Positions 2,684 to 52,803 of a stretch of 64,000 nt of DNA are shown in pieces; positions within the stretch are counted from its first letter, which is position 1; every line of letters starts with the position of its first letter. This stretch comes from an uncultured Bacteroidales bacterium (lineage in GTDB: Bacteria > Bacteroidota > Bacteroidia > Bacteroidales > F082): NCBI GenBank assembly GCA_946185535.1, contig CAMHJX010000002.1:62001-126000 (forward strand), given 5' to 3'. Made by a program: the position numbers and the translations under genes. Below the pieces are notes generated by a model. It did no database searches and was not told where the DNA came from. It saw nothing but the letters and a program-made list of their open reading frames with translations.

Positions 2684-5600
2684 ATGAATTGTAAAAAATT
2701 ACGAAAAACAGGGGCGGTTTTTGCCCTTCTGTTGTTGCTGATGTCCTTCGCTGACAGCGTTTGGGGGCAAACAGTAAGCTTGGTTGGTGTGGACAACATC
2801 ACAACCAATAGCATGAGAGTCCAAGTTAGTGCTACTGGTACTAATTTGAGAGAGTTTGGTTTCGTTTATAGTAGAACAATCGATGCCCCTACCATCAATA
2901 ATTATGGGGGCAATAATAATGGGGGTAGGGTCTCATTAGGCAATGCGCAAGGCACTTATGACGGCGTGATGAGAAACCTTATTCCAAACACAACCTATTA
3001 TGTGCGTGCCTATGCTATTACCAATGGTTGGAATTCACAGACACTGTACGACGGTAGTGCCGCTGGAGTGCCATACACGACGCTTCCAGAGGTAACCACT
3101 GTTGAAGTCACTGATATCACAAGCTTCAATGCTGTGGGCGAGGGTAGTTTGACCAACAACAATGGCAACGCACCTATTACCGCGCGTGGTATCTGTTGGA
3201 GCAGCACTAACTCTTCTCCAATCATTAATGGTCCCGGATGCAGTCATGCCGCAAGCAACACGGAAGATAACCCCTATTCCGTGGAAATGACTAACCTTCA
3301 GCCGAACACCACCTATTATATGCGTGCCTACGCCCAAAACAGTGGCGGCGCAGGCTATGGCGCTGTGGTTACTTTCACTACGCCTGCCGCGCCTCCCGTC
3401 GTGACCACCGTTGGTGCCATCCACGTCACAAGCGTTAATGCTGTGGGTTTGGGTCGTGTGACCAACGACTGCGGTAGCCCTGTTACGCGCCGTGGCGTCT
3501 GCTGGAGCACCACCAACACTACTCCTACCATTGATGGATCGGGGTGCAGTTTTGGCACAAGCGGTACGGGAATAGGTAACTATTCTGTGGATATGAATAA
3601 CCTTCAGCCCAATACCACATACTACGTACGTGCCTTCGCCGAAAACGGTGTTGGCATCGCCTATGGTGAAGTAAAGACCTTATACACTACGGTTCACATG
3701 CAGAACGGAACCATTGTAGTGGACGACGAATTCATCTTTACCGACAGCGAGGCTGATGATGGATGGTATAACCATAACGAAGACTACACCCTCGTTTTCA
3801 TTCCGGAATCCACGTCCAACGGCGTGAAAATCGAGTTCGAATCATTGCTTATCAACAACGATTTTCTGTATTTCTACGATGGTGACATCTCCGACAACAA
3901 CCTTATCGGCGTATTCACCTGCAATGAATATCATGCCTATCAACACAATGGAGACAGCCAAATTTCTGTCTTCGGTTTGAACGGCAATATCTTCACCGTG
4001 ACATCGCACAACTATATGACTGTGCGTTTTGTCTCCGACCATCAATGGAAAGATGCCGGTTGGGTCGCTCATGTCTCTCAGGTGCCTTTCACACTTCAAC
4101 CGCCTGCGGTGGCCAAGTTGGCCTGTACGGACGACATCTTCGAGCTGTTGCCCACCAGTAAAGGAAAGTACTCCACTACGCTAAAGTATGCCATCGCATA
4201 CGGAGGCGAGAATCCAGGTGAACCCAACACGGAGTACTCAGTGGGTACACCTATCAATATTAATGGTAGTTATCCGGTTAAGATCAGAGTAAAGACAGAA
4301 GTGGTAGAAACAGAAGGTGCCGATCCCATCAGCTCCAGCTCTCGCCTGTTCATTTTCGGAGATGAGTCGCTTGTTGGGCATCCTGTTGCACCAACCATTA
4401 CTCCCCCCGCTTCGGGTACTTCCTCGGTGACCCTCAGTGTGGTGCGTCCTGCTGACCTCAATGATACATGGAAGATTCTCTATACCCTTGATAGCACTGA
4501 CCCAACAGATCCGACTAATACTAATGTATATACCATCGACGCGACTTCCGAGGATACGCTGACTCACAATGTGACCACCTCAGGTACGGTAGCACTCTAT
4601 GACTTCTGCGAAGTGATTGCAGTTGTTCAAGGTACTACCTGCCCCGATATCTATTCGGACGCTACCAGTTATATATACGACGATACTCACACCATCTATC
4701 TGGTACGTCCGACAATCTCGTTTGCTGGAAATGGCAGTACGGCTACCACCACCATTACCCCGCCCACCGAGGGCTGCATTATTTATTACACAGTGAACGG
4801 TGGACCAATTCAAATTTATGCTTCCCCAGCCATCGATGGCAATCCAGCTATCGCTCCCACACCATTCACGGTGAATGCCAACGACCGTGTGGAGGCTTGG
4901 GTGGACAAACCGGGCCCCAACTATGTGGAGTCTGGCCATGCCGTAAGCACCTATCTTCCTGGCAATGATGACCCAGGCAGTGGTAGCGGCCTGTATGGCG
5001 AAGTGGTCTATCTCGACGACCGTGAGCCACACAGCTGGAGCTACTACAGCGATGGCGACCAACCTGTCCATAGCCTCCATCCTGCCGACGTGAAGATTAC
5101 CTATTTTGGCAACGGCACGGGAACGGTGAGCACAACCAATGGACCGGCCCCCGACACTGTTAGTTGGACCGCCGATGCCACAGGTGTGCAGGTAGGTCCT
5201 GGTGCTGCTGGCAACCAATTCGTCTATTACAAAACCCTCGAAAGCGGTGGCTATGAAGTTGACAACGGCGTTTATATTAATTTGGTTCCCGATTATGAAG
5301 GAACAAGCCATGACTATCCTTATTCCTTGATTCCTAACCCGTTCTCGGTGAGACCAATGTACACAAGCGTTACAACAACGAGAAATATTTATATTGAATA
5401 TAGACAGTATTATGCTCCAGGTACGTTGACAGTATCTTATATTGATATCAATGGTAATTTGCAAACTTTTACACAAAACACTTTCTATCCACGTCCAGAT
5501 CCTACTACATTAACTGTGCAAACAGGTTCAACTGTTTCTTTTAGTTTAAGTAGAACAGGAGACTGGAATCCACCGCAAGGAGAGGGGCCGGCTTATGTTG

Positions 5601-8600
5601 GCTGTGATGTAAAATATGATAATCAAGACGGTGAATTGATTTGGACAGGAACATCTACTGGCCAAACGGTTACAGGAGATGTCACAGTGCAAGAAGGTGG
5701 CCCTGGTGGAGGCCCCACTATTACTAATACTGACTTCCGTGGCTTCTACGCTTGGCGCGTGAAGCGCTTGAAGGGCGTAACCATCAGGGATGCCTATGGT
5801 ACTACTTATGGTGAGAATTCCATTATTGATGCCGAGACGCGTTTGCTGTTCCACACCGAAAACGAATATGACAATGAAGTGGACTTCGAAGCCCTTTGGG
5901 CCAAGGCCTACGTGGTGGAAAACGGCAACACCGCGAGTGGACTGAATGCCAACGTAAGCTATGAGCGTAATTTTGTAGTGGGTGCGACTACCATTAATGG
6001 TGCACTTAATGTGCCTGTTACCTACAGCAGCTACTATCCCGACGGAACAGTTGCAACTAATGGCTATGTCAACATGGTAGGCAACTTCATCTGCAATAAC
6101 GACACGAAGTTCGAATACATGAACCTTAGATTAGTTAATAATGATGGGCAAGGCAGCGAAGCCATCGAAATAGCTGCCAACAACCATTATCTCTGCTTAG
6201 GAAGAGGCATTAACAATGCTGCAAATAATACTATAAATCGTGTCGAGGGTATCCCTGCTCAAAATCAAACTGATTTGAGATATACCCTTCGCATTGAAAG
6301 CGGAAAAATCAATAGATTGACTTTTGTTAGAGATAATGATAACCGTCAAACTATTAGTGGACGTTATTTGGTGACAGGCATTACAGGATGTGACTATGAC
6401 AGGGCACAGAATGATAACGACAATTTGATTATTGCTTGCAATCCAAATATTACTTCTAACTATGAAGACGAAAACAATAGGTTATTCCTTTCATACGGAA
6501 TGGATTTTACTGGTCGCTCAAACTATGACCGTCAGACTTTTGATCTTGTGGTGAAGAGTGGTACATACCAACAACCCTATTGGGATAATGGAGGTAACGG
6601 AATGCATAGCCGAACATATTATGTAGGCCAAAACAATGCTGGAGCCACTATATCAGGTTTCCGATACATCACAGTGGAAGGGGGAGAGTTGGGCAGTATG
6701 AACGGAGGTCGTGGCACAAACAGTGGCAGTAATACATCTATAAGCAATGTGGTATCAAGCATCAGAGTCAAGGGTGGAACTTTCCATGGAAGTGTGTTTG
6801 GTGGTGCAGCCGATAACACAACCTATGGCAGCCGAAGGATTGTCATCACCGACGGTGAGATTCTTGGTTGGATTGCAGGTGGCTGCAATGGTTCGGGTGG
6901 ATCAACCGAAACAGGCCAAGCCAATACGAATGGCGACTCATATGTTTATGTGGGAGGTAATGCCATGGTTGGTGGTGACAATGTCATTACGGTGAACACC
7001 ACACCGGGAGGCAATGTGTTCGGGGCTGGACGTGGCAAGGTCATAGCCGACGGCCCTGGCCCTAATAATGTTCAAGCCAGATTTAACCAAACTGCCTATG
7101 TTAATACATCCAACGTGGTCGTAGCCGATGACGCTTACGTTTCCAATAATGTGTATGGTGGCGGTTACCACGGATACGTTACCGACTCAACTAATGTCTA
7201 TATTGTTGGCGGTAGGGTTGGAAACAGCGTCTTTGGCGGTGCTTATATGCATTATTATGATGATGGTTACAATAGAACTATTCCTGCCACCAGAGTCCAC
7301 ATTAAAAATGGCCACGTCATGGGTAATGTGTATGGCGGCAGCGATTCCTTGGGTTATGTTGGTCAACGTGACGCCAGGGTTGAGATGATTGGCGGAATCG
7401 TCGGTGATACGTTAAACAATTTGGTAAACGGTAGCGTGTTTGGCGGTGGCAATGGTATAGAAACTGCGGTGCAGAGCAATACATTCGTCACCATCGACGG
7501 TGGCATGATAGTGAACAACGTGTATGGAGGCGGAAACATGGGTGCGGTTTGGCAGAAAGCTACGGTCACCATTAAAAATGGAAAAGTGGGCGACGAGCAT
7601 AGCCAAACCAATCCTCGCAAAGGCAATGTGTATGGAGGCGGAAGAGGTGAGCCATGGCGTGGAGAGGTTTCATACGTGAATGAGGCCGAGGTCAACATCG
7701 ACGGTGCCTATATCATGGGCTCGGTGTTTGGCGGCGGTGAGAACGGACATGTACGTACCAACACGGTGGTCAACGTCGATAAGGGCCAAGTGGGTGGCTA
7801 TGAAGACGATGCCGTTCATAACTGCAATAACCCCTACCACGGTAGCGTGTTTGGTGGTGGTAGCGGTTTGGAACTGTACAGCAACAACGGACAGAATGTT
7901 TACCATAATCAGGCTGGTTGGGTGATGGGCAATTCGACGGTCAACATCGTCGATGGTGCCCACGTCATGCGTAATGTGTATGGCGGCAGCAACGTGGCCT
8001 CGGTGGGTCAGGTTGAAATGAACGGTAATACGCCCGTTACCGATGGCGCAGGCTACTTTAATCCAGTGCCCAATACGGGTCTGGCTACGGTCAACATTTC
8101 GGGTGGTATCATCGGAACGGACGGCGAAAGCTCCACTCTTGTTTACGAGGGGCATCCTACGATGGTTTCCAACGGCATGGTGTTCGGCTCAAGCTATGGC
8201 TATGCGGTCATAGGCCAAAAGGATTTTGCCCATGTCAACAGCACCCATGTCATGATTGCTGCCGGTGCCGACATCCGTGGTTCGGTGTTTGGCGGCGGCG
8301 AAGACGGCATTGTGCTCGACTCCACCTTCGTTGAAATCATCGACGGCACCATCGGCATGCCTATTACGGGAGAAGAAAGCGAGCTTGATGCCTATGGCGC
8401 AAGCGTCGTTGGTCCTATCTATAAAGGCAACGTGTATGGCGGCGGTCGAGGCCTCGACCTTCATAACGACACAATCAGCACCGTTGCAGGTTTCGTGAAG
8501 AGTAACACGCACGTGGTGATGACTGGTGGTTTGGTGCGCCACAACGTGTATGGTGGCGGCAGTCTGGCCAATGTGGGATTCAGGAATGATCCAGCCACGG

Positions 8601-11600
8601 GTAGGGCAATAGTCCTCGTCAGAGGTGGTCAGGTGGGTGCCACAGGTATCAACAACGGTAACGTGTTCGGTTCGGGTCGTGGTATGCCTGCCACTCCAGG
8701 CGATGATGAACTTATGAAATATGCCAGATTGGCCTTTACGAACAACACCTTCGTCACCATCGACGGCGTGGGCAAAGTGAAGAACGCGGTGTTTGGCGGT
8801 GGCGAGAACGGCCATGTGTTCAACAAGACCAAGGTGAACATCGATGGCAATGCCGCTATCGGTAGCGACAACATCAACCCCTACTCGGGCACCATGTTCG
8901 GCGATGTGTATGGCGGCGGTCGCGGTGTAGACAAGAATAGCGATGGCGATTTCAGCCGCACTGCTGGTAAGGTGTATGTGCAAACCGAGGTGAACGTCAA
9001 TAATGGTACCATCTACCATGCCGTGTATGGTGGCGGTGCCATGGCTTCCGTAGGTCAGATTGAGACCAGCGATGGCACGCCTACGGGTACACCTTATTAT
9101 TATAGTTATGATGACGCCACTCAAACGAATGACCCGGAAACAGGCTATTTGAAGCTCAAACCAACTACAACTATTGAGAACAATGGCTTTACTGTGGTCA
9201 ACATCAATAACGGCACCATCGGTTCCGATGGCCCCAATGGCGACGGCAACGGCAATGTGTTTGGCTCGGCCAAAGGTTGGGCAGGTTCACAATTCAAGCA
9301 CTTGGCCTATACGGGTAACACGGATGTCAACATCATCGGCGGACACATCATGGGCTCGGCGTTTGGTGGTGGCGAAAACGGTCACGTGTTAGGTAGCACC
9401 GATATTGAAGTTTCGGGTGGAGAAATTGGTTTGACGGGATCACACAGCACCCTTATGGGCAATGTGTTCGGTGGCGGCTGCGGTACCGACAAGGACGAAA
9501 ACGGTAAAAATAGTCTCACGGCTGGTTGGGTGAAGTTCAACACGAATACCCTCGTTAGGGGTGGCTCCGTCTACCGTAACGTGTATGGTGGCGGTAACTT
9601 GGCTTCCGTGGGTTATGCTGAAAACCATAATGCTGAATTCTCAGGCAGGGCCAATGTCCTCATCAAGGAGAATGCGGTTATCGGTATCGACGGCAACGAA
9701 AACGGACACGTGTTCGGCTCAGGATACGGTCGTGCAGCTACTGAGTCAGGTGCTGACACCATTTATGCTCAGATGGCTTTCGTAAAGAATACTTTCGTCA
9801 CGATTCAAGACGATGCTGCTGTGAAAGGTAGCGTGTTCGGTAGTGGTGAAAATGGCCACGTGCGTCAAAACACCCATGTGTTTGTGGAAGGCGGTGAAAT
9901 TGGCACCGATGGTACCACAGGCTACGAGGGTAACGTCTACGGTGGCGGTCGCGGTAAGGACTTGAATGCCAATAACGATTATAGCCGCACCTCAGGTAGA
10001 ACTTACGGCAATACCTTCGTTGACATCAGCGGCGGTAAGGTGAACGGCTCCGTCTTTGGCGGTGGTCGTATGGCTACTGTAGGAACTTATCCTGCCCAGG
10101 ATACCATCCCCGCTGACCCTGATTTCAACAATGGCGGTGAAACAGGTCGAGCCACGGTGTATATCCATGGCGGCGTGACCATAGGTAATGAAAACACGGC
10201 CTTACGTGGCGGTAACGTTTATGGTGGCGCCAAAGGCTTGGTGGGTACGAAGTATGCCCATTTAGCTTATCTGAAGAATACGGAAGTTATCATTAATGAA
10301 ACTGCTACAATCAACGGCTCGGTGTTTGGTGGCGGTGAAAACGGTCACGTTTCCGAGAACACCAAGGTGGCCATCTACAATGGCACCATTGGTTTTGCTG
10401 GTGGCAACGAATACAAAGGCAATGTGTTTGGCGGTGGCCGAGGTATCGATAGGGATGCCAATGGTAACCAAACTGTAACCGCTGGTATCGTAAAGGGTAG
10501 CACCCGTGTTTTCTTTGAGGGCGGTACTGCGTATGGCAGTGTGTTTGGTGGAGGTAACGCAAGTCTCGTTTCCTTGGAGAAAGTGGTCAACATCAACGGT
10601 GGTGACGTGATGAAAAACGTGTTTGGCGGCTGCAAGCAAGTCGTTGGCGACACAAAGGTACGCCTGCACCCTGGCACAAAGACGGTCAACATGCGTGGTG
10701 GACATGTCCACGGTTCGGTGTTCGGATGTAGCAACAACTCCATCGACGGCAACTTTGAAGAAGGACACGAAAAAGACTGGACCGCTTTTGTCAACATCAG
10801 TGGTGGCACCATTGATGGTAATGTGCATGGTCTGGGTTACGCCGGTGAGGTGATAGGCTCGTCGGAGGTCAATGTTGGTGTCAACGCCATTGCCGAAAAG
10901 GTCAACGGAGAATGGTCTGATTTGAGCAAGCGCAATGTCGACAACATCTATTTCGACGATCGTGCCTATCTTCCTACCGTACTTACTACAGGTTTGTTTG
11001 ACGTGACAAGCACTTCTGCCGAAGTGGACGGTTATGTCTCCGCCATTGCTAATAGCAATGTTACGGAGCGTGGTATTTGCTGGGGCACATCACCCGAACC
11101 CACAACAAAGGTTCAGGCTACAACGGAAGGAGACGGCCGTGGCTATTATACCCTCGACCTCACAGGCTTGACTCCAGGCACCACCTATTATGTGCGTGCC
11201 TATGCCATCAACGGCAAGGGAACGACCTACGGTGCCGAGATCTCCTTTACTACCGATGCTGAAGAACCTAACTATGCTACGGCAGAAATCGACCGCGATG
11301 AGCACGAAGGCAAGATTGAGATTGAAAATGCGGTGAGTATCGGCAACTCAGTGTATGCTGGTTCCAGCTACTTCGGAACACAAGGCAACAACGTGAACGA
11401 TTGGACTCACTACGATGCTACGGGCTATACCAACATCTACATTGACGGTACGTCATACAACACTCTTGAGAATTCGGGTAATTTCATGAATATCGGAGGT
11501 GGCGTGTTCGGTAGTGGTACCCACTGCGAGGCTGGTCTGTCGGGACACAATGTCTTGATGAGAGAGTATGGCCATCGTAACACGAATAATACTGACCATG

Positions 11601-14600
11601 GTGCTGAGTTTACTTCAGGCACCCGTACCCTGACCACAATCCAGCGTTGTCAGAACTTGCTGCTTGACAATGTCAACATCAACATCACTGGTTTCAACGA
11701 CATCAACACAACCTACAACACCAACAAGTTGTATTCTGTGGTTAAGGTGGATGATACGTTGTATATGGCAAATGCCAGTGCTATCGCTATTGGTGATGGC
11801 CAGCCCGCCTATATGGACTCGATCCATTGCTTGCGTAGTGTGCATCTGAACGTGACTAATAGAACGATTTACGATGAGCTTGATGCTTTGGAGGATAATG
11901 ACCTCACTAATATACAGAATGATTCCGTCAAGCAAAATTACGGCAGGATTCCGAGCTGGGAATGGATTGCTGTCAACCCCAAAACTGGAAGCGATAATAC
12001 GGCACAAAATGCAAGACTGTATTACAGAACTTCTGCGTCAACAACACCTTTGAATTATACGCAGGAAAACGTCATCTTGTTCAACGACTTCTCGCAACTT
12101 TGGGTGCGTTATCATAAGGGCGTCCCAACCACCATGTATGGTGAGCTGCAAGGTTTCTTCAGAATGGACAGCGACTACGAACCTTACGGAACGGAGAGCT
12201 TTGCCTTTGCCCGCCCGAAGATTACCGGTGCTAACAACAACAACATCTTGTCAGGTAATGCTGAGAATCCTTATCTATACGCCAAGGACAATCTTGAGGA
12301 CGGCGGCTTCCTGAGCTACAAGGTTGACAATTTGGGTGGAGATTACGAGAACGGATATAACTTCTTCACCGAACCAGGTCTCATCGGTGGTTGGAACTAT
12401 CCCGTCGATGGTGACGACGGTGGTGAAGACTTCACCAAGACGAAGCAGTATCCTTATATCAATGTGTATCCGATTACGAGAGATGACCGCGACTTCTACC
12501 GTATGTGGGTCATTCCCAGAAGAAACGGTGCAGCCTGGTATGTGGATGGCCGTGGCGTTGGTGCTGAAACTGGTGGCTGGGGTAAAGACTTGAACCACCA
12601 GGATGGCTGGGGTCACTTCCCGGATAAGCCGAAACTGACGGTGAGCTTTAAAGCAGGTGCCGATGATGCACATAATGGTATCATTTTTGATAGAACAAGA
12701 ACTATCCCTAACCCTAATGGAGAAGGATATTTGTATGGACCATATAGAGTATTCGATCCTTCGAAGGATGTCATTTATGTGGTAGGACCTGTTTCGGCTC
12801 TGAAGGAAGAAGATCGCAGTGAGATTAACATTAATAGAGTTTGGGAAAATGAGTATACGCTTGATCCCGATAGTTTGTATCCGCTGCATAACTACAAGTT
12901 GAAGCTCTTCCGTTATCCTGGTGGACATAAGATGAGTAACGATTCAATTGATGGTTCTGTAACGACCACACTGCTGACCCAAGACATCCTTGGTGATGAT
13001 GATACATTTGAGGCTTACGATGGATTGCCAGCGGGCGTTACCTCAGGTCCTGGTGCCAACTACGATGCCATGATCGATGTGGATTCGATTTCGGATAAAC
13101 AAGGCAATATCACACTGAACAATGTCTTGGTCGATGGTCTGTATGGCCATACTCAGATTGATGATGGTTTCCATCAGATTCCGACCAGCTTTAATCAGGA
13201 TGCAGTGCACAAGCCGCTTGTTGTTATGGGTTCTGGAACTACGTTGACGTTGAAGAGCGTTGCTGAACCAGACGACCCGACGCAGGAAGGTACCGAACTA
13301 CAACGTGGTTACAACAACACCAAGGCTGCTTACTACTACGATCCTGATTATGATGATGACGCTGACGATAATCCTGACAATGTCTTTGCTACACGTCATG
13401 GCGGTGCAGTCTATGTGCATCGTTATGCCACGATGAACGCTGAAGGCAAGGTGACCGTGAAAGAAAACTTGCAGAATCTTGATCAAATTGTTTACGATGA
13501 GGATGGAGAAGAGAATGGAACGACACCTGTCAAGATTGAGAGCAACGTCTATCTGCCTACCTTTAAAAAGCACACTTACATCACCGGTCCGTTGGATCAA
13601 ATTTCACGAATCGGTATCACCAGCCCGATTAGAAATGCGGAGCCTCATTTCACGCAGAACACCATGTCACCCATCGCAGAAGCTACTAATGCCAACATTG
13701 CATACAATGCTTGGAATAACGAGAACTACTACGACGACTTGGCCCGCTTCTTCTATAGAGGCTATCAGGACGACTTCAAGACCACCTATTATGAACAAGA
13801 TGCGGCGAATTACTCGCCTGCGCTGGCTGATGCAGGAGACGATGAAACCATCGAAAAGACCCTCTATTTTGGCTGGACTTGGAACAATGTGGTGACGAGG
13901 AAGCCTCTTGACTTCAGCTATGACAGCATTGACTCGCCCGAAGACCTTGCCTGGCTGATTAGCGTGGTGAATGGTTTGAACGGCAGGGTGGCCAATGACC
14001 TTTCCTCCATCAATGTTATCGAAGAAAAGACCGACATTGACTTGGTGCAGTATGTGTGGCTCCCAGTTGGTGACCAAATAGCTGGAGTGAAGCCCTTCGG
14101 CAGCAAGTTCGACGGTCGTGGTCATATCATCACCAATTTGAGCATGGCATACTTCGGTATGGGCGACGGACGCTACAACCGAGTCAACTATGGCATGTTT
14201 GGTGCCGTTGACGGCGGCGTGGTTGACCGTACCTTCGTGTTGAGTGGATATATCGAACCTGTCAGCGACCTGAACCATAAAGGTGATGCCAATATAGGTA
14301 CCTTGGTGGGCATGTTGGGCACAGAAGGTGCTTCCAAACCCAAGAGTATGGTATCCAACAGCGAAGGTGGTGCCGACATTGTTTGCGCAGTGCGCGACGA
14401 TGCATTTAACGTTGGCAGTGTGATTGGTTCTATGGTGGAAGGCGAACTCCATTCCTCAATGGGTATGTCTGACATCAAGGCTGAGAAGTCGTACAATGAG
14501 GGCGGTTACATTGGAGGTCTGGTGGGACGTGCCGAACCGAATATCGACGGTAAAGTGGCCAATATCAACAACTCCTTCTCCAATCCGAAGTTGATGTTTG

Positions 14601-17086
14601 GTGTAGATAGTGATGTCAAGGCTGGTGGTTTGGTCGGATATAATGTGGCCACCATCAAGAACTGCTATTCTCGTCTGCAAGAGAAAGATAGCACTGATAA
14701 TCATGTTACTAATGCCAAATTCAAGCTCTTGGCATTTGAGACGAAGATGCCGATTATTTTGGGACATAGTTTCCAGTCACCCGTGTTCGAACAGGCTGGA
14801 TTTGACGCAGGTTTCGCGAGCTTGCTGACCAATTGTTACCATTACACAGACCCGATGTCCGCCGACCGTTACCGTTATATCTATAACGACAACAAGTTGC
14901 AAGTAATGGATGGCGGTAGTTGGAAGGATATTGCGGAAGACGAAACCTGCCTGCTGTTCAACAATCTGAACCAGTGGGTTGAGGAGAACAATGATGGTGA
15001 TGATCACAAGTATTCCTTGTGGGTCCGTCCGACTATCACGGGTATCAACGACGACTTCCCCATCTTGCATCTCTGCGATTGGAACGACCAAAGCATACAA
15101 GGCCTTGGCGACTTCCGTAGCATGGCTACTTGGCATGGAGGTCCTAAGTTGCAATATGCAGGTCCTGTGCGTGATTACAATGAGTTGAACTCTATGGTTG
15201 ACAGAATGACGACCAAAGACTATATGTATGTCTATGGTGATGTGACCGATGTGTTGACAGCTAGGGTTGATTCAGCAAATCTTTATCGTCCAGCCCAACT
15301 CAGCGTCTATGAGCATGCAGCTATCTTGCATCCTGGCACTTTGGCAGGCCATCCTGAGACTTACGTGGGTGTTACATTTGACAATTCATGTGCTCATGCA
15401 TACTCAACGCCAGGTCTCAACCATATTGAAGACAGTCTGTTCTTGCCTCGCGATTGGCACATGTTCTCTTCAACGCTCAGCAATGCACCATTAGGCTTCA
15501 ATTACGATGTAAATGGAGTGAACACAAACTTGTCTCAGTATTATACTGGCGGAGATAATGGTACATATTTCAACAATCCATGGCCATTTATAGATGGAGT
15601 AGCTGGTAGTAGTTATGGAGAGTTTACATGGCTCAATGACGCAGGATCGAATGATAAGAATCGTTACTGGATGAAGGGCTGGGAGAATAGCCAGAGCCAG
15701 AACTGCGCTGCACCTGAGTTTGATGAAAGCAAATGGGTGGATGGTTATTTCCCGAGCAGTGTGGCTGGCCAAAGCGAATTTGGCGATGGCTGCATTGAGG
15801 ATGAAGATGAGTATGGTCGTTTCCCCTATGGTATGGACATGTTCTGCTGGTATGAGCCCGAACCGCATTGGATCAACTTCAAGCGCAACGGCCCGAACCA
15901 CTGGCATAGTGATGAGATTAATCCTGATGTGCCGCATAACCAGCATGTTCATAAGCACCTTCCTTATACAGAGAAGAACGAGGATGACACAGAGGATATC
16001 TCCAACCAAAATGAGGACTATTTGAAGATTGGTAAAGGCTATATGTTCGCAATAGCAAAGAAAACCTACCTTCAGAGTCATGGTAATTTGAACGCTGAAG
16101 AAAAGTATCGTGCTGTCACCAGACTAGGAAGGGATTTCCCAGGTTGGAATCTTGTGGGCAACCCATACCATGCATACCTCGATTTTGAACAGTTCTTGAC
16201 CAAGAATGGATCTGTCGAACCGTACTATGTCATTTATGATGCTGATGGCTATAAAGGTGGTCCTAAGAGTGCATACCTCTACTATCCAAATTCCGGTTCG
16301 GAGGGTGGCGAGTATGCAGATCAGTACTTGCATCCTCATCAGGGTTTCTTTATTAAGACGAATAATGGAAATATTCCGTTGACTTTCGATGAAAGTATGT
16401 CTGTGACCCGTTCTGATGCGTCTGATATAGCTTACCGTAGTCGGAGTTACAACTATCCTTTGGTGAACCTTTATTTGAGTAGCGAGAGGGGATGCTCGGA
16501 TGTGACGGTCATAGAGTTCCACAGACCTTCATGGGGAGGTGCAAAGAAGCAGAAGGGGTTGCGTCAAGGCAACGGTCTGTTCTATGCCTATCATGAGAAC
16601 GAACCCTATGCTGCATTGTTTGCCAAGGAAGGAACAGATAAAGTTCCGTTAAAGTTTGAAGCGAAGGAAGACGATGTGTTCACCATGAGATGGAACACGG
16701 CTAACGGATACTTCAGCAGCCTCTATCTGATAGACAACCTGACAGGTGCCCGCTATGATATGCTTGCGAACGACAGCTACGTGTTTGAGGGCCACAAGGA
16801 TGATTACTATTCTCGTTTTTACATCACATTCGACTGCCTTGATGTGGAAGAGTATGAAGAAGACGAGGTAGAGAAGACGTTTGCCTTCTTTGATGGCTCG
16901 CAATGGGTTGTGACAGGCGAAGGTTCGTTGGAGTTGATCGACCTTCAAGGCCGCATCTTGTGGCAAGAAAGAGTCTCAGGCGGACAGAGCCGAGTAAGTA
17001 TTCCCGATGTTGCGAAGAGCCTTTACCTATTGCGATTGGTAAACTCCTCGGAAGGGACAAAGGTTCAAAAGATAGTCATAGATTAG
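2684..17086 (+). CDS. Giant T9SS-type surface protein with V(F/Y)GGG repeat solenoid (4800 aa)
   Basis: Signal peptide at residues 1-29 (ends SVWGQ). Three FN3-like modules follow at about 30-330, each with a TxRG(I/V)CW and a TTYY(V/M)RA signature. Then come a CUB-like domain (about 345-467) and two chitobiase-C-terminal-like segments (about 567-615 and 685-740). A Gly-rich region at about 1360-2730 holds some 35 motifs of the type GSVFGGG or GNVYGGG, each followed by TxVxIxGGxIG; this reads as a beta-solenoid. A fourth FN3-like module lies at 2765-2858 and GLUG-like repeats at about 3805-4000 (GGLVGR, GGLVGY). The last 65 residues (ELIDLQGRILWQERVSGG ... LYLLRLV) resemble a T9SS type A sorting domain, though without the usual YPNP. 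I infer a secreted, surface-attached adhesin. The intact 14.4-kb frame argues for selection. The binding target is unknown. Confidence 0.85.
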   Translation: MNCKKLRKTGAVFALLLLLMSFADSVWGQTVSLVGVDNITTNSMRVQVSATGTNLREFGFVYSRTIDAPTINNYGGNNNGGRVSLGNAQGTYDGVMRNLIPNTTYYVRAYAITNGWNSQTLYDGSAAGVPYTTLPEVTTVEVTDITSFNAVGEGSLTNNNGNAPITARGICWSSTNSSPIINGPGCSHAASNTEDNPYSVEMTNLQPNTTYYMRAYAQNSGGAGYGAVVTFTTPAAPPVVTTVGAIHVTSVNAVGLGRVTNDCGSPVTRRGVCWSTTNTTPTIDGSGCSFGTSGTGIGNYSVDMNNLQPNTTYYVRAFAENGVGIAYGEVKTLYTTVHMQNGTIVVDDEFIFTDSEADDGWYNHNEDYTLVFIPESTSNGVKIEFESLLINNDFLYFYDGDISDNNLIGVFTCNEYHAYQHNGDSQISVFGLNGNIFTVTSHNYMTVRFVSDHQWKDAGWVAHVSQVPFTLQPPAVAKLACTDDIFELLPTSKGKYSTTLKYAIAYGGENPGEPNTEYSVGTPININGSYPVKIRVKTEVVETEGADPISSSSRLFIFGDESLVGHPVAPTITPPASGTSSVTLSVVRPADLNDTWKILYTLDSTDPTDPTNTNVYTIDATSEDTLTHNVTTSGTVALYDFCEVIAVVQGTTCPDIYSDATSYIYDDTHTIYLVRPTISFAGNGSTATTTITPPTEGCIIYYTVNGGPIQIYASPAIDGNPAIAPTPFTVNANDRVEAWVDKPGPNYVESGHAVSTYLPGNDDPGSGSGLYGEVVYLDDREPHSWSYYSDGDQPVHSLHPADVKITYFGNGTGTVSTTNGPAPDTVSWTADATGVQVGPGAAGNQFVYYKTLESGGYEVDNGVYINLVPDYEGTSHDYPYSLIPNPFSVRPMYTSVTTTRNIYIEYRQYYAPGTLTVSYIDINGNLQTFTQNTFYPRPDPTTLTVQTGSTVSFSLSRTGDWNPPQGEGPAYVGCDVKYDNQDGELIWTGTSTGQTVTGDVTVQEGGPGGGPTITNTDFRGFYAWRVKRLKGVTIRDAYGTTYGENSIIDAETRLLFHTENEYDNEVDFEALWAKAYVVENGNTASGLNANVSYERNFVVGATTINGALNVPVTYSSYYPDGTVATNGYVNMVGNFICNNDTKFEYMNLRLVNNDGQGSEAIEIAANNHYLCLGRGINNAANNTINRVEGIPAQNQTDLRYTLRIESGKINRLTFVRDNDNRQTISGRYLVTGITGCDYDRAQNDNDNLIIACNPNITSNYEDENNRLFLSYGMDFTGRSNYDRQTFDLVVKSGTYQQPYWDNGGNGMHSRTYYVGQNNAGATISGFRYITVEGGELGSMNGGRGTNSGSNTSISNVVSSIRVKGGTFHGSVFGGAADNTTYGSRRIVITDGEILGWIAGGCNGSGGSTETGQANTNGDSYVYVGGNAMVGGDNVITVNTTPGGNVFGAGRGKVIADGPGPNNVQARFNQTAYVNTSNVVVADDAYVSNNVYGGGYHGYVTDSTNVYIVGGRVGNSVFGGAYMHYYDDGYNRTIPATRVHIKNGHVMGNVYGGSDSLGYVGQRDARVEMIGGIVGDTLNNLVNGSVFGGGNGIETAVQSNTFVTIDGGMIVNNVYGGGNMGAVWQKATVTIKNGKVGDEHSQTNPRKGNVYGGGRGEPWRGEVSYVNEAEVNIDGAYIMGSVFGGGENGHVRTNTVVNVDKGQVGGYEDDAVHNCNNPYHGSVFGGGSGLELYSNNGQNVYHNQAGWVMGNSTVNIVDGAHVMRNVYGGSNVASVGQVEMNGNTPVTDGAGYFNPVPNTGLATVNISGGIIGTDGESSTLVYEGHPTMVSNGMVFGSSYGYAVIGQKDFAHVNSTHVMIAAGADIRGSVFGGGEDGIVLDSTFVEIIDGTIGMPITGEESELDAYGASVVGPIYKGNVYGGGRGLDLHNDTISTVAGFVKSNTHVVMTGGLVRHNVYGGGSLANVGFRNDPATGRAIVLVRGGQVGATGINNGNVFGSGRGMPATPGDDELMKYARLAFTNNTFVTIDGVGKVKNAVFGGGENGHVFNKTKVNIDGNAAIGSDNINPYSGTMFGDVYGGGRGVDKNSDGDFSRTAGKVYVQTEVNVNNGTIYHAVYGGGAMASVGQIETSDGTPTGTPYYYSYDDATQTNDPETGYLKLKPTTTIENNGFTVVNINNGTIGSDGPNGDGNGNVFGSAKGWAGSQFKHLAYTGNTDVNIIGGHIMGSAFGGGENGHVLGSTDIEVSGGEIGLTGSHSTLMGNVFGGGCGTDKDENGKNSLTAGWVKFNTNTLVRGGSVYRNVYGGGNLASVGYAENHNAEFSGRANVLIKENAVIGIDGNENGHVFGSGYGRAATESGADTIYAQMAFVKNTFVTIQDDAAVKGSVFGSGENGHVRQNTHVFVEGGEIGTDGTTGYEGNVYGGGRGKDLNANNDYSRTSGRTYGNTFVDISGGKVNGSVFGGGRMATVGTYPAQDTIPADPDFNNGGETGRATVYIHGGVTIGNENTALRGGNVYGGAKGLVGTKYAHLAYLKNTEVIINETATINGSVFGGGENGHVSENTKVAIYNGTIGFAGGNEYKGNVFGGGRGIDRDANGNQTVTAGIVKGSTRVFFEGGTAYGSVFGGGNASLVSLEKVVNINGGDVMKNVFGGCKQVVGDTKVRLHPGTKTVNMRGGHVHGSVFGCSNNSIDGNFEEGHEKDWTAFVNISGGTIDGNVHGLGYAGEVIGSSEVNVGVNAIAEKVNGEWSDLSKRNVDNIYFDDRAYLPTVLTTGLFDVTSTSAEVDGYVSAIANSNVTERGICWGTSPEPTTKVQATTEGDGRGYYTLDLTGLTPGTTYYVRAYAINGKGTTYGAEISFTTDAEEPNYATAEIDRDEHEGKIEIENAVSIGNSVYAGSSYFGTQGNNVNDWTHYDATGYTNIYIDGTSYNTLENSGNFMNIGGGVFGSGTHCEAGLSGHNVLMREYGHRNTNNTDHGAEFTSGTRTLTTIQRCQNLLLDNVNINITGFNDINTTYNTNKLYSVVKVDDTLYMANASAIAIGDGQPAYMDSIHCLRSVHLNVTNRTIYDELDALEDNDLTNIQNDSVKQNYGRIPSWEWIAVNPKTGSDNTAQNARLYYRTSASTTPLNYTQENVILFNDFSQLWVRYHKGVPTTMYGELQGFFRMDSDYEPYGTESFAFARPKITGANNNNILSGNAENPYLYAKDNLEDGGFLSYKVDNLGGDYENGYNFFTEPGLIGGWNYPVDGDDGGEDFTKTKQYPYINVYPITRDDRDFYRMWVIPRRNGAAWYVDGRGVGAETGGWGKDLNHQDGWGHFPDKPKLTVSFKAGADDAHNGIIFDRTRTIPNPNGEGYLYGPYRVFDPSKDVIYVVGPVSALKEEDRSEININRVWENEYTLDPDSLYPLHNYKLKLFRYPGGHKMSNDSIDGSVTTTLLTQDILGDDDTFEAYDGLPAGVTSGPGANYDAMIDVDSISDKQGNITLNNVLVDGLYGHTQIDDGFHQIPTSFNQDAVHKPLVVMGSGTTLTLKSVAEPDDPTQEGTELQRGYNNTKAAYYYDPDYDDDADDNPDNVFATRHGGAVYVHRYATMNAEGKVTVKENLQNLDQIVYDEDGEENGTTPVKIESNVYLPTFKKHTYITGPLDQISRIGITSPIRNAEPHFTQNTMSPIAEATNANIAYNAWNNENYYDDLARFFYRGYQDDFKTTYYEQDAANYSPALADAGDDETIEKTLYFGWTWNNVVTRKPLDFSYDSIDSPEDLAWLISVVNGLNGRVANDLSSINVIEEKTDIDLVQYVWLPVGDQIAGVKPFGSKFDGRGHIITNLSMAYFGMGDGRYNRVNYGMFGAVDGGVVDRTFVLSGYIEPVSDLNHKGDANIGTLVGMLGTEGASKPKSMVSNSEGGADIVCAVRDDAFNVGSVIGSMVEGELHSSMGMSDIKAEKSYNEGGYIGGLVGRAEPNIDGKVANINNSFSNPKLMFGVDSDVKAGGLVGYNVATIKNCYSRLQEKDSTDNHVTNAKFKLLAFETKMPIILGHSFQSPVFEQAGFDAGFASLLTNCYHYTDPMSADRYRYIYNDNKLQVMDGGSWKDIAEDETCLLFNNLNQWVEENNDGDDHKYSLWVRPTITGINDDFPILHLCDWNDQSIQGLGDFRSMATWHGGPKLQYAGPVRDYNELNSMVDRMTTKDYMYVYGDVTDVLTARVDSANLYRPAQLSVYEHAAILHPGTLAGHPETYVGVTFDNSCAHAYSTPGLNHIEDSLFLPRDWHMFSSTLSNAPLGFNYDVNGVNTNLSQYYTGGDNGTYFNNPWPFIDGVAGSSYGEFTWLNDAGSNDKNRYWMKGWENSQSQNCAAPEFDESKWVDGYFPSSVAGQSEFGDGCIEDEDEYGRFPYGMDMFCWYEPEPHWINFKRNGPNHWHSDEINPDVPHNQHVHKHLPYTEKNEDDTEDISNQNEDYLKIGKGYMFAIAKKTYLQSHGNLNAEEKYRAVTRLGRDFPGWNLVGNPYHAYLDFEQFLTKNGSVEPYYVIYDADGYKGGPKSAYLYYPNSGSEGGEYADQYLHPHQGFFIKTNNGNIPLTFDESMSVTRSDASDIAYRSRSYNYPLVNLYLSSERGCSDVTVIEFHRPSWGGAKKQKGLRQGNGLFYAYHENEPYAALFAKEGTDKVPLKFEAKEDDVFTMRWNTANGYFSSLYLIDNLTGARYDMLANDSYVFEGHKDDYYSRFYITFDCLDVEEYEEDEVEKTFAFFDGSQWVVTGEGSLELIDLQGRILWQERVSGGQSRVSIPDVAKSLYLLRLVNSSEGTKVQKIVID
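6740..10880 (+). repeat. Coding V(F/Y)GGG repeat array with a four-module super-repeat
   Basis: In the giant gene the motifs recur in a fixed order: an ENGHV module (GSVFGGGENGHV), a GRGxD module (GNVYGGGRGLDL, GNVFGGGRGIDR), a MASV/LASV module (RNVYGGGNLASV, HAVYGGGAMASV) and a GSGRG/GSAKG module (GNVFGSGRGMPA, GNVFGSAKGWAG). ENGHV or EDGIV starts recur near 7740, 8290, 8800, 9365, 9840 and 10330, a period of about 475-570 bases (160-190 residues). Repeats before 7700 and after 10500 are more divergent, the usual pattern when the centre of an array is homogenised by recombination. Confidence 0.8.
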
Positions 17087-17110: not shown

Positions 17111-17443
17111 ATGAATAATAATATGAAAAACTTATCGAGAAACAACGGGAAACGTGCCTTTGGCGGTATCAGGACAGCTTCTTTTGTATTATTGTCTATG
17201 TTGACGCTTTGGTCGGGTTCGATGCGCGCTCAAGTGTTCCTTATGGAAGATGATAATGGAGCGAACATTAGGTTGAAAGAGTCGGAGAGTTTTATTCCGG
17301 TTCCGTATCAGGGTACGAGTCTTGACGAGTATTTGTATGCCCCCTTGGGCGAAGGCTGGCTATTGTTGGCAGGCTTAGGTGGCGCGTACTTGTTGAGGAA
17401 AAAAAGTAAGAAGGAAAAATCAGAAGATTCAAAGGAGGATTGA
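17111..17443 (+). CDS. Small exported protein with PLGxG C-terminal membrane anchor
   Basis: A 110-residue protein starting 24 bases after the giant gene stops, so probably co-transcribed with it. A hydrophobic export signal lies at about residues 24-42 (SFVLLSMLTLWSG, then MRAQ). A short polar middle (about 43-77) contains EDDNGANIRLKE. The tail is PLGEGWLLLAGLGGAYLLRK followed by KSKKEKSEDSKED. The tail is a proline-led hydrophobic helix and a basic stretch, the layout of PEP-CTERM-like or sortase-like sorting anchors; PLGxG tails of this kind recur in Bacteroidales proteins, in my recollection. It could be a co-expressed anchor or accessory of the giant protein, or a processed peptide. No enzyme motif is visible. 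Confidence 0.7.
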   Translation: MNNNMKNLSRNNGKRAFGGIRTASFVLLSMLTLWSGSMRAQVFLMEDDNGANIRLKESESFIPVPYQGTSLDEYLYAPLGEGWLLLAGLGGAYLLRKKSKKEKSEDSKED

Positions 17444-42166: not shown

Positions 42167-45100
42167 TTACTCTTTCACAAACTTCAAAGTACAAACCGCA
42201 CTATCCGATTTCACGGTGACAAAATACACACCGCTGTTCAAACCTTCAAGGTTGAACGCGGTCATTCCTTTGGCTTGTTGACTGTAAACTTGCTGTCCCA
42301 AGCTGTTGAATACCAAGATCTCACAGTCATCCTCAGGAAGGTTGAGGCTGAACTGGCCATGGTTCGGGTTGGGATAGATAGCCACACCGTTTGTCAAGAT
42401 TTCTTGCGTGACGGTGATGGTTTCCGCGGGTGGGAAGACAATGTTGTCTAACCATGCGCAGTCGCTGCCATTGCTGACATACACGTCCTTGTTGTAGGAC
42501 CAATACAGCTCATGCACTCCGGGGGATAAAGCAAAAGATACTTGACCCCACGGCACTTCGCCTGACCAATCCCCTTGCAATTCGGTATCGATGGTGAAAT
42601 ACAAAGCGTCATAGCCGTTTTCCGAGGAGACTTTTCTATAGAAGCTGATCTCTCCTTCGCTGTGCACGTCCAAGGTAATCTTCAATACGGAGCTTTGGTT
42701 GTTGCCGATACTACCTGACTTGATGCAATAGTTGCCTTCGTAGGGGTCCTCGGTTACCACTGTCCAAGGTTTGGTGGGGTCGTTTTCCCATTCGAACTTG
42801 CTGAAATCGCCAGTCTCCCAATCTTCAAGGACATTGCCAACTGCGAAGACGAAGCTGCCCTCATTGGTGTAGAGACCTGATGTGACGGTAAAGCCAATTT
42901 CATATGCCACGCCAAGTTCCACCTCTTCGGAAAGGGTGAAAACGAAGTCGACAGTGAACTCATCATTGGCATTCACAGTGCCTTGTTGGAACACGTTTTG
43001 CTCAAAACTGATTTCAGGAAGGTCGCAGATGATGTTGAGACGTGTGTTGGGTGCAGCAGCCAAACCTGCGTTCTTGACGGTGATGTGTGCGGTGACGGTC
43101 TCTCCTGGGTCGACATGGCCGTTGCCGTCGCTGTCTTCAATTACGGTTCCAACTACGGCGAACTCAGGGGCTTGGAGAATGATGATGAAATGGCTCTCCC
43201 AAGTGTCGGTGCCGTCAGAGCAAGTAAGGGTAAAGTCAGCCTTGGTCATATTGGGCACATTGTCGGCGATATACATGGGGAAGGCATTGTTGAGGGTGAC
43301 TGTGGCACCTCCTTCGATAGTCGGAATGACTTCAAAAGAATTGGAGGGCGTGATGTAAGGGCACTCGGTGTCGAGGCGAACCGAGACATTGTGTGCAGTC
43401 ACGTTACCCACATTCTTGACTTGCAGGTCAAGGGCTATGGTTTGGCCATAGTCAGGTTGGGCACCGCCGCTGATGACATGACTGTCGTAAATGACATAAG
43501 CGCAGTTGCTGGGTAGGCTAATGACAGGTAGACTTTGAGGCCAAGCGTCACAACCTGTCACGATGAGGCTCATCTCATCAACGAAGTTAATAGGATCGGA
43601 AAATTCAATGGTGACATTGCCGTCTTCATCTGTGTAGCCCACCCCAATCATGTCTTCGATATGGAAAAGGGCACAACGGAAATTCTTTAGTCCGTTGCCG
43701 TTGGCATTGCTGACCGTGACATCCATTGAGGTCATGCCTACGAAAATCTCAGAGGTGTAGTTCACCTCGGGCGTGAATGGTTCGTCATGCCATGGGCTGC
43801 AAGCTACATCGCCCATCATATTGAGGTCGTAGAAGTTCCAGCGCAGGGCGCCTTCTTCCCATTGTCCTGGGGCATTGACCCAAGGTGCTGTCTCGATTTT
43901 ACTTTCCCTCAAGGCCATTCCGCCATAAGGGATGCGGTCGTGGTAGTATGCGTCTTCCGTCTCTCGGGCGAGGTGGATGGCAGGGCCCTCGGTCTGGCCT
44001 TCATTGAACCAGCCGTAGCGAGAGTTGCCGAAGGTGGCCACAGCGAAGTTGGCGATTTTGGTCATGCGTTCCAATATGCAGTCGCTGGCGAAATCTCCGC
44101 AGATGCAGCCCGAGGTGTGGAAGAAGGTGTAGTTGTGATCCACGCCATTCACGGCGCTGAAGTTGTTGTTGGTGATGTCGCCGTTGCTCCAGCCAGCCAC
44201 ATAGGAGGTGTTGGCGTGACCGTCGTGGTGGACATACTGCGTGCCTTGGTTGATGGCATTGCGAAGCAGTGAGCCGCTCCAGTTGCCTTCTTCCTCATAA
44301 AGGCGTGTGAAGTTGTAATCCTCGGGGATGCCCGTAGAGGTGTAGCCGTTGTCGTCGTGTGTGCCAATGAGCAGTTCGAGGTATTGGCTGCCGTTGCTTT
44401 CAGGGTCATCGTAGAGGTGTTCGCCAGCCATGATGACATCATGGAACTCGCCAAGGACGGGTTCGGTTTGATAGGTCATGGCCTTGTGGAGCATGTTGTC
44501 GAGTTCGCTTTGGTTGCTGAAACACATACGTCCGATGCCAATCTCGGGCAGCAGGTCGTCTTCGCCGATTTCGCCCCAGCGGTTGTCACCATCATCGTTC
44601 CAGTTGCCATCCAAAGCAGCATAATAGAGGTCGGCAGGGATGTCGTTGTCTTCTTTGTCGCCACCTCCGCTGGTAACATAGCAGTATAAGCCGCGGTAGG
44701 GGATGTCGGGCACGTCGCCGGCAAGGTTCACCATCATGATGCCGTTGTTCTCGTATTCCTGGATGATGTAGTTGCGCAGCTTCTCGGGGTTGTCGCGGCC
44801 TTCCATGGTGCTGAGAATGGTCTCAAGGTCAACGACACGGGTGCGGAGACCTCGAGCCTGGTAGAAATAGACATATTGGTTGAAGGCGGTGACATACGGC
44901 TGTGTTGTGACAACCAAGAGCTCGTAGCCACCCGCGGTGCGACCTCTGTCGTTATAGGTCTGCAGCATCTCGGGGTTCTGGGCAAGACGCTTGGCGCGCT
45001 CGGCATTGTCGCCGTTGAGCCACAGCTTGCGGCTTTGGTCGGCCTTAGAGGCTGTCGTCGTGATGCGAACGGTGGCCTTGGAGGCATAACGCACTTCGCC

Positions 45101-45562
45101 GGTGCCAGGCACATACTGCACGGGCGTGAAAGCCGAGAACGCAAAACCAATGCCGTTCAGGTATTGTGTGCTAAGCTTTCCGTAGGCTTGAGTAGGATAG
45201 ACGCTTTTTGAGGCATAGAGTGTCTCGTCTTTTTCAAACTGCTTGCGCACGGGGTCGGAGTAGGTGAGGGCCGATTGGTAAGGGAAGAGGTTGTGGCTGC
45301 CTTCTATGGTCTGGAAATCGGAAAGCTCCACATCGATGCTGACGGCTTCTGTGCCTTGGGGCAACATAAGACTGACGCTCTGCCAAGGTAGCGACGGCTG
45401 ACCCGCAAGGGCGCTCTGCATGCAGTCCGTGAATTGAACCTGCTCGTAGCCTTGGATTTGGCTAAGGCTAGGTTGATTGAAATAATAAGTCTTCTCGATG
45501 GTCTGCGCCGAAGCGAACGAAGTGACCATTAGGGCTAAAAGGATTAGGTTAAGTTTTTTCAT
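42167..45562 (-). CDS. Gingipain-like C25 cysteine peptidase with T9SS sorting domain
   Basis: A 1131-residue protein. Signal peptide MKKLNLILLALMVTSFASAQ. A propeptide-like region spans to about 190; the C25 catalytic domain spans about 210-600 with QYVHHDGHANTS (catalytic His at 449) and FHTSGCICGDF (catalytic Cys at 486), matching the GH and CxxG(D/N)F motifs of gingipains. Ig-like beta domains follow (about 600-900), then a carbohydrate-binding or MAM-like domain (VLEDWETGDFSKFEWENDP, about 905-1045), and a T9SS type A sorting domain at the end (IYPNPNHGQFSLNLPEDD ... LNSGVYFVTVKSD). Exported through the type IX system to the cell surface. Close paralogue of the 1129-residue protein encoded by 49392-52781. 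Confidence 0.92.
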   Translation of the reverse strand: MKKLNLILLALMVTSFASAQTIEKTYYFNQPSLSQIQGYEQVQFTDCMQSALAGQPSLPWQSVSLMLPQGTEAVSIDVELSDFQTIEGSHNLFPYQSALTYSDPVRKQFEKDETLYASKSVYPTQAYGKLSTQYLNGIGFAFSAFTPVQYVPGTGEVRYASKATVRITTTASKADQSRKLWLNGDNAERAKRLAQNPEMLQTYNDRGRTAGGYELLVVTTQPYVTAFNQYVYFYQARGLRTRVVDLETILSTMEGRDNPEKLRNYIIQEYENNGIMMVNLAGDVPDIPYRGLYCYVTSGGGDKEDNDIPADLYYAALDGNWNDDGDNRWGEIGEDDLLPEIGIGRMCFSNQSELDNMLHKAMTYQTEPVLGEFHDVIMAGEHLYDDPESNGSQYLELLIGTHDDNGYTSTGIPEDYNFTRLYEEEGNWSGSLLRNAINQGTQYVHHDGHANTSYVAGWSNGDITNNNFSAVNGVDHNYTFFHTSGCICGDFASDCILERMTKIANFAVATFGNSRYGWFNEGQTEGPAIHLARETEDAYYHDRIPYGGMALRESKIETAPWVNAPGQWEEGALRWNFYDLNMMGDVACSPWHDEPFTPEVNYTSEIFVGMTSMDVTVSNANGNGLKNFRCALFHIEDMIGVGYTDEDGNVTIEFSDPINFVDEMSLIVTGCDAWPQSLPVISLPSNCAYVIYDSHVISGGAQPDYGQTIALDLQVKNVGNVTAHNVSVRLDTECPYITPSNSFEVIPTIEGGATVTLNNAFPMYIADNVPNMTKADFTLTCSDGTDTWESHFIIILQAPEFAVVGTVIEDSDGNGHVDPGETVTAHITVKNAGLAAAPNTRLNIICDLPEISFEQNVFQQGTVNANDEFTVDFVFTLSEEVELGVAYEIGFTVTSGLYTNEGSFVFAVGNVLEDWETGDFSKFEWENDPTKPWTVVTEDPYEGNYCIKSGSIGNNQSSVLKITLDVHSEGEISFYRKVSSENGYDALYFTIDTELQGDWSGEVPWGQVSFALSPGVHELYWSYNKDVYVSNGSDCAWLDNIVFPPAETITVTQEILTNGVAIYPNPNHGQFSLNLPEDDCEILVFNSLGQQVYSQQAKGMTAFNLEGLNSGVYFVTVKSDSAVCTLKFVKE

Positions 45563-52781: not shown

Positions 52782-52803
52782 TTTCAATGAGTAAATTTGG
52801 CTG

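Follow-up and report, generated by a model that had tools for sequence, protein, structure and literature searches.

The window analysed here is a stretch of 64,000 nucleotides from the genome of an uncultured Bacteroidales bacterium, and positions below are counted from its first letter. A single ATG-started frame of 4800 codons with no internal stops occupies positions 2684-17086 of the plus strand, and is followed by a micro-gene. The features of the two genes are as follows.

2684..17086 (+), giant gene, 4800 aa, an open reading frame whose orthologue in MAG RUG14699 (L043) is 4799 aa long when counted from its ATG
2684..2770 (+), putative N-terminal signal peptide, residues 1-29, identified by eye
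3086..3688 (+), FN3-type domains of the N-terminal head, approximate limits (PF00041 41.8 bits, PF16656 51.2 bits)
3686..4093 (+), CUB-like domain (PF00431 20.3 bits, just below the cut-off of 21.4)
4094..5083 (+), Fn3_assoc / CHB_HEX_C_1-like segment (21.4 and 20.8 bits, just below the cut-offs of 23 and 22)
6794..10873 (+), V(F/Y)GGG solenoid-like array, residues 1371-2730, 33 modules (motif pattern, AlphaFold2, lag test)
7700..8260 (+), cycle 1 (A-B-C-D), this and the next five from motif positions
8261..8764 (+), cycle 2 (A-B-C-D)
8765..9334 (+), cycle 3 (A-B-C-D)
9335..9808 (+), cycle 4 (A-B-C-D)
9809..10297 (+), cycle 5 (A-B-C-D)
10298..10873 (+), partial cycle 6 (A-B-C) and two closing modules
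10874..11263 (+), FN3-type domain behind the array (on the piece, PF00041 24.8 bits, cut-off 25, and PF16656 26.5 bits, cut-off 30)
11291..16663 (+), conserved C-terminal base, residues 2870-4660 (mean column identity of 52% among 10 homologues)
14621..14671 (+), GLUG motif within the base (PF07581 25.4 bits, cut-off 20.5)
16913..17080 (+), T9SS type A sorting domain, matched part (TIGR04183 25.4 bits, cut-off 23)
17111..17443 (+), companion micro-gene of 110 aa, starting 24 bases beyond the stop codon of the giant; its relatives follow giants

The earlier note on this DNA, made from the sequence alone, had described an uninterrupted frame of about 4800 residues with about 35 motifs, and coordinates, length and motif number were all borne out. 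The V(F/Y)GGG-type core matches the protein 35 times (500 shuffles, mean 1.2, maximum 5), and 33 of these matches are array coils at residues 1371-2679. The match at residue 1903 resembles a chance hit, 14 residues ahead of a true motif, and that at residue 2941 falls past the end of the array, within which the smallest motif spacing is 26 residues. Four module types were set by the loop behind the motif (A, ENGHV; B, GRGxD; C, NLASV; D, GxGxA), and in the consensus anatomy (93 to 100 modules per type) loops are inserted at set points of the modules. The A modules of the window protein start at residues 1681, 1868, 2036, 2226, 2384 and 2547, giving A-to-A cycles of 187, 168, 190, 158 and 163 residues, that is, five complete cycles and an incomplete sixth. 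The recurring four-module order with a period of about 160-190 residues, also proposed from the sequence, was found to be significant with and without labels. Nineteen four-module windows were in order (shuffle mean 1.34, maximum 10; 0 of 5000 shuffles), and the mean label-free alignment score peaked at lags 4 (50.7) and 8 (49.5), compared with 31.6-35.0 at lags 1-3 and 5-7 (0 of 2000 permutations).

The label test was passed at no more than 3 of 5000 shuffles by 13 of 21 proteins (near-duplicates included), and the eight others are short-rod proteins or lack the C-terminal sorting domain (CTD). With the longest uninterrupted module run of each protein as the only input, the lag-4 test was passed by ten of 13 CTD giants (G018, G024 and G849 failed) and failed by both CTD-less partner proteins. 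Strings of module HMMs placed 1316 of 1863 neighbouring modules in order, a count that is partly circular because the HMMs were trained on in-order cycles from the same proteins. The commonest breaks of order in these strings are B-A and D-C, as if half-cycles of two coils (AB, CD) were also gained or lost as units.

FN3 is the only domain of the head over a cut-off. In the whole protein PF00041 covers three stretches (cut-off 25), the best of which is the one behind the array. Among the domains that had been named around the repeat, FN3 and GLUG hold, and the CUB-like and chitobiase-like ones stay just below their cut-offs. The sorting domain expected at the end was recovered by TIGR04183, and the Pfam T9SS model PF18962 gave 18.5 bits, below its cut-off of 27. 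On the C-terminal pieces, type A-like CTD models alone were among the matches (Pfam E 0.01, NCBIfam E 0.1), with no type B CTD model and no beta-barrel family. The base as a region (residues 2870-4800, about 1,900 aa) was found by piecewise comparison in the CTD-bearing giants of the genus, except that the piece 3330-3700 was undetected in the short-rod group; a search of solved structures gave no relative of it. Its column identity over 10 proteins compares with 29% for the cycles (38 cycles). Blastp matches to the head of the window protein were confined to orthologues and the short-rod group, and in several giants the repeats begin soon after the signal peptide, without a head.

No model of Pfam or NCBIfam covers the repeat, with nothing better than E 0.02, and a known repeat family was rejected on this ground. 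Search of PDB sequences gave only weak matches in the FN3 region (E 0.61 and 0.69) and another match at E 0.52. In the excerpts of open-licence PubMed Central articles that were retrieved, no description of the repeat, its family or the companion was found, so the statement that no described family has such a module order stands within these sources. A mobile or phage origin was also rejected: tblastn against 50,697 phage and 72,556 plasmid records gave no match at E 1e-3, and the eight stretches of viral contigs matched by one short peptide pattern were not confirmed.

A profile search among Bacteroidales had been suggested earlier, and a profile built from 38 cycles, searched at E 1e-5 or better, matched 34 of the 99 genomes of the genus. 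Of these, 22 match strongly, at 1.3e-34 or better, and the remaining 12 weakly, at 3e-14 or worse; short rods were found in all five weakly matching genomes that were opened (G003, G004, G033, G034 and G236). Nine of 393 genomes matched in an order-wide sample, six of them outside the genus and in three families, and in a phylum-wide sample the one match among 395 genomes was the window's own. The named relatives are the assemblies RUG14699, RUG265 and Tb.RUG.400, where RUG presumably stands for rumen genomes. When nine long-enough repeat proteins from other families were submitted to the lag test, one was ordered (L092 of G146; 0 of 2000) and eight were not. Confinement of the four-module order to the genus was thus rejected; the order occurs outside it, and most outside relatives are without it. 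In four proteins from other families of the order (L092, L095, L096 and L099) the last coil is GNVYGGGNxAxVTGxTxV-like and there is no sorting domain.

Rod size ranges from 9 to 111 pattern motifs among the relatives examined, with open frames of up to 7955 aa. The window's own genome encodes a paralogue of 4035 aa (L046, G000:C9:73000-92000) that shares the base, has 21 motifs and is likewise followed by a companion. About a dozen relatives have, immediately upstream of the CTD giant, a second V(F/Y)GGG-repeat gene that lacks a sorting domain (for example L050, L054, L055, L106, L107, L108 and L113); the window has no such gene.

Structure prediction, which had been named as the check on a beta-solenoid, is compatible with this class. 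AlphaFold2 returned an all-beta, solenoid-like model for residues 2026-2730 from four sequences, the window protein and three relatives (pTM 0.81, mean pLDDT 71, with pLDDT below 50 at 153 of 705 residues). Such a confident model is not automatic, because a job of equal depth on residues 4081-4800 gave a pTM of 0.20. The model has 17 strands of at least five residues for 17 motifs, one long strand per module, which together with the 26-residue minimal spacing fits one coil per module, and not two, of the "one or two coils" suggested before. Foldseek search of the model against the PDB gave 66 matches at E up to 10, none at E 0.001 or better (best E 0.014). The ten best rows are all beta-solenoids (Ag43, RTX antifreeze beta-roll, pertactin and a PL6 lyase), lower rows include LRR and other unrelated folds, and among the matches listed TM is at most 0.22 by query length and 0.42 by target length. 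The modelled array thus likely belongs to the beta-solenoid class, with no significant match to a solved fold. The RTX beta-roll antifreeze adhesin (3p4g) is a solenoid and has the best Foldseek probability (0.57), but its E is 0.15 or worse and neither the window protein nor its cycles has an RTX match in Pfam. Tandem GGxGxDxUx nonapeptides were not found either, and a single GGRGxD was seen by eye in B modules only.

The evolution of the array was compared among species-level relatives. In G859, the closest of them at 95.3% identity, the array is the same as in the window protein, and in G031 (72% identical) the five cycles still correspond one to one to those of the window protein (63-81% identity on the diagonal, 33-48% off it); rapid variation of repeat number, of which these species-level comparisons gave no sign, was rejected. 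Within the window protein the cycles are 33-47% identical to each other and are not perfect repeats; they are individually conserved and constrained, not homogenised. Against G859, dN/dS is 0.108 in the repeat and 0.295 in the head. It is 0.754 in residues 1090-1365 (very few changes, dS 0.026), 0.296 in residues 2870-3700, 0.047 in the GLUG part, 0.197 in residues 4100-4660 and 0.064 in the CTD. The dS along the giant gene varies from 0.026 to 0.235, which hints at recombination.

Among 12 pairs at 82% identity or more, the array is kept in ten, one of which (G852/G854) has a 23-residue gap at the broken end of G852, and is changed in two, G018/G856 (84%) and G822/G855 (83%). The array of G856 exceeds that of G018 by a block of 600 residues, which makes up exactly 12 modules (three rounds of D-A-B-C) and preserves both frame and phase. 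Because G849 and G854 carry the matching block (68-69% identity) and the break falls at corresponding points of two C modules, the alignment suggests that the difference is a loss in G018. At a second site of the same pair, G018 has about 327 extra residues, which comprise seven called modules and an eighth, degenerate D recognised by eye. G855 and G024 have one 26-residue coil more than G822, at the very start of the array. Change in whole four-module units, the pattern to be looked for according to the earlier note, was accordingly seen for 12 and 8 modules in G018/G856 and not for the end coil in G822/G855, so that length change by whole cycles only was rejected; internal change by whole cycles, seen twice in one pair, is not yet a general rule. 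Larger blocks distinguish more distant pairs, for instance one of 2063 residues in G849, whose 41 pattern motifs are not a whole multiple of four.

The companion protein has a putative topology, assigned by eye, of a signal peptide, an acidic segment, Y-x-P-L-G-x-G, one C-terminal transmembrane (TM) segment and a basic tail, and the same topology was recognised by eye across the alignment of relatives (23 rows). It is encoded behind 24 of the 26 complete CTD giants that have 250 bases or more of following sequence, a set in which near-duplicate pairs are counted, and is missing in G010 and G034. Seven of eight CTD-less repeat frames had no companion match, and the one weak match (E 2e-4) is perhaps the signal peptide of the next gene. 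In the window's own genome all three proteins with the last base part (E 1e-10 or better) have a companion, and the companion matches below E 1e-4 number eight, compared with at least 150 T9SS clients. One of the five remaining matches lies behind a T9SS-tailed protein of 629 aa, and four are at a contig end or without a preceding T9SS-tailed protein. In 12 other genomes of the genus, a hand count placed the companion within 600 bases of the matched base part at 15 of 19 loci. The miss in G034 is a true absence, and those in G236 (two) and G020 (one) may be contig ends, because other companion matches sit at contig starts there. The companion was found at 2e-16 or better in the eight genomes with a base locus, and not at all or at 7.9e-11 or worse in the four without one.

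No model in Pfam or NCBIfam names the companion family. It was not assigned to a known sorting-signal protein, since LPXTG/PEP-CTERM-like matches occur in at most nine of 23 members (best E 0.0027). According to excerpts of PMC9143113, type B CTD clients of T9SS have PorP-like partner proteins. The giant and its companion resemble this arrangement in that a secreted client would have its own partner, and differ from it in the type A signal and in a one-TM micro-protein that is not PorP-like. T9SS clients in the genome number at least 150: all 150 scored places, from 202 candidates, are over the TIGR04183 cut-off, and the weaker tail of the window protein itself is absent among the 150 listed.

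From sequence and model we lean towards regarding the protein as a T9SS-exported, surface-anchored solenoid stalk, most likely with a role in adhesion or spacing. It would be exported by Sec and then pass through T9SS, leaving its base at the cell surface. If each V(F/Y)GGG module forms one coil, the array would be a rod, and with the standard beta-solenoid rise of 0.48 nm per coil its predicted length is about 16 nm (33 x 0.48 nm), holding the FN3/CUB-like head off the cell. Longer loops placed at set coils by the four-coil order would make the surface pattern repeat every four coils; gain or loss of whole cycles inside the array would keep this register, and coils at the end may change singly. 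Plant fibre, host mucus or other cells are putative targets. The small membrane protein behind the giant probably assists the export or anchoring of base-bearing proteins, which is the weakest step of the explanation.

A rather unlikely alternative is a self-associating or matrix/surface-layer protein, whose rods would pack laterally through the repeating surface, with autoaggregation of the Ag43 type and no display at the tip. A surface with four-coil periodicity would be suitable for such packing, the headless giants are consistent with it, and the best Foldseek matches are Ag43 structures (PDB 4kh3, which we take to be Ag43). Those matches are not significant, however, the window protein and its orthologues do have a head, and the individual cycles are conserved rather than made alike. 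Like the passengers of Antigen 43 and pertactin, the window protein may be a long parallel beta-solenoid at the cell surface, but it has no C-terminal barrel family and carries instead a T9SS signal and the four-coil higher-order repeat.

We consider it improbable that the repeat is no solenoid and that the model reflects the tendency of AlphaFold2 to turn repeat sequences into solenoids. The alignment of four sequences, the moderate pLDDT and the lack of a significant fold match would allow for such a bias; against it, the alternation of T-x-V-x-I and G-G-x-I-G and the 26-residue minimal unit suit beta-helix coils, the repeats are imperfect, and residues 4081-4800 were not modelled with confidence at equal depth.

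A moving gliding adhesin of the SprB kind is very improbable. The genome does have GldL (190.6 bits, cut-off 68.3), but GldL is a core part of T9SS too, and the SprB-repeat family that Pfam presumably holds had no match in the window protein at E 1 or better. There is a precedent for a giant T9SS adhesin in SprB of Flavobacterium johnsoniae, a gliding protein of 6497 aa in excerpts of PMC9870892, with a type B CTD in those of PMC9870892 and PMC10202324. The window protein is similar in being a very large Bacteroidota protein with predicted T9SS export to the surface, and differs in having a type A CTD and no SprB repeats. Hardly to be expected, finally, is a carbohydrate-active beta-helix whose solenoid would itself cleave or bind polysaccharide in the manner of beta-helical lyases. 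The weak Foldseek matches do include polysaccharide lyases, and one of the 38 cycles touches a polysaccharide-lyase domain model (E 0.12; 12.9 bits, cut-off 27), but no lyase family is over its cut-off in Pfam or NCBIfam and lyase domains are far shorter than the array.

The solenoid stalk could be part of something wider, although we regard this as doubtful: an uncharacterised Bacteroidales surface-appendage system with a constant base that carries the sorting signal, a swappable head, a rod of four-coil cycles whose inner length evolves mostly by whole cycles, and a client-specific one-TM factor for T9SS export or anchoring, to which some species would add an upstream CTD-less solenoid. Our confidence in both the stalk and the appendage system is lowered because of the one-coil change and the order found in G146. 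If they are true, the genus would use a four-coil unit to make rods of different, graded lengths on its surface and would offer a natural system for questions of solenoid length, register and surface pattern, and the client-linked micro-protein would be a new T9SS part for type A clients.

Elsewhere in the window, two peptidase C25 family proteins with T9SS tails (1131 aa each, 43% identical) are encoded on the minus strand at 42167-45562 and 49392-52787, and a glycosyl hydrolase family 3 gene separates the two.
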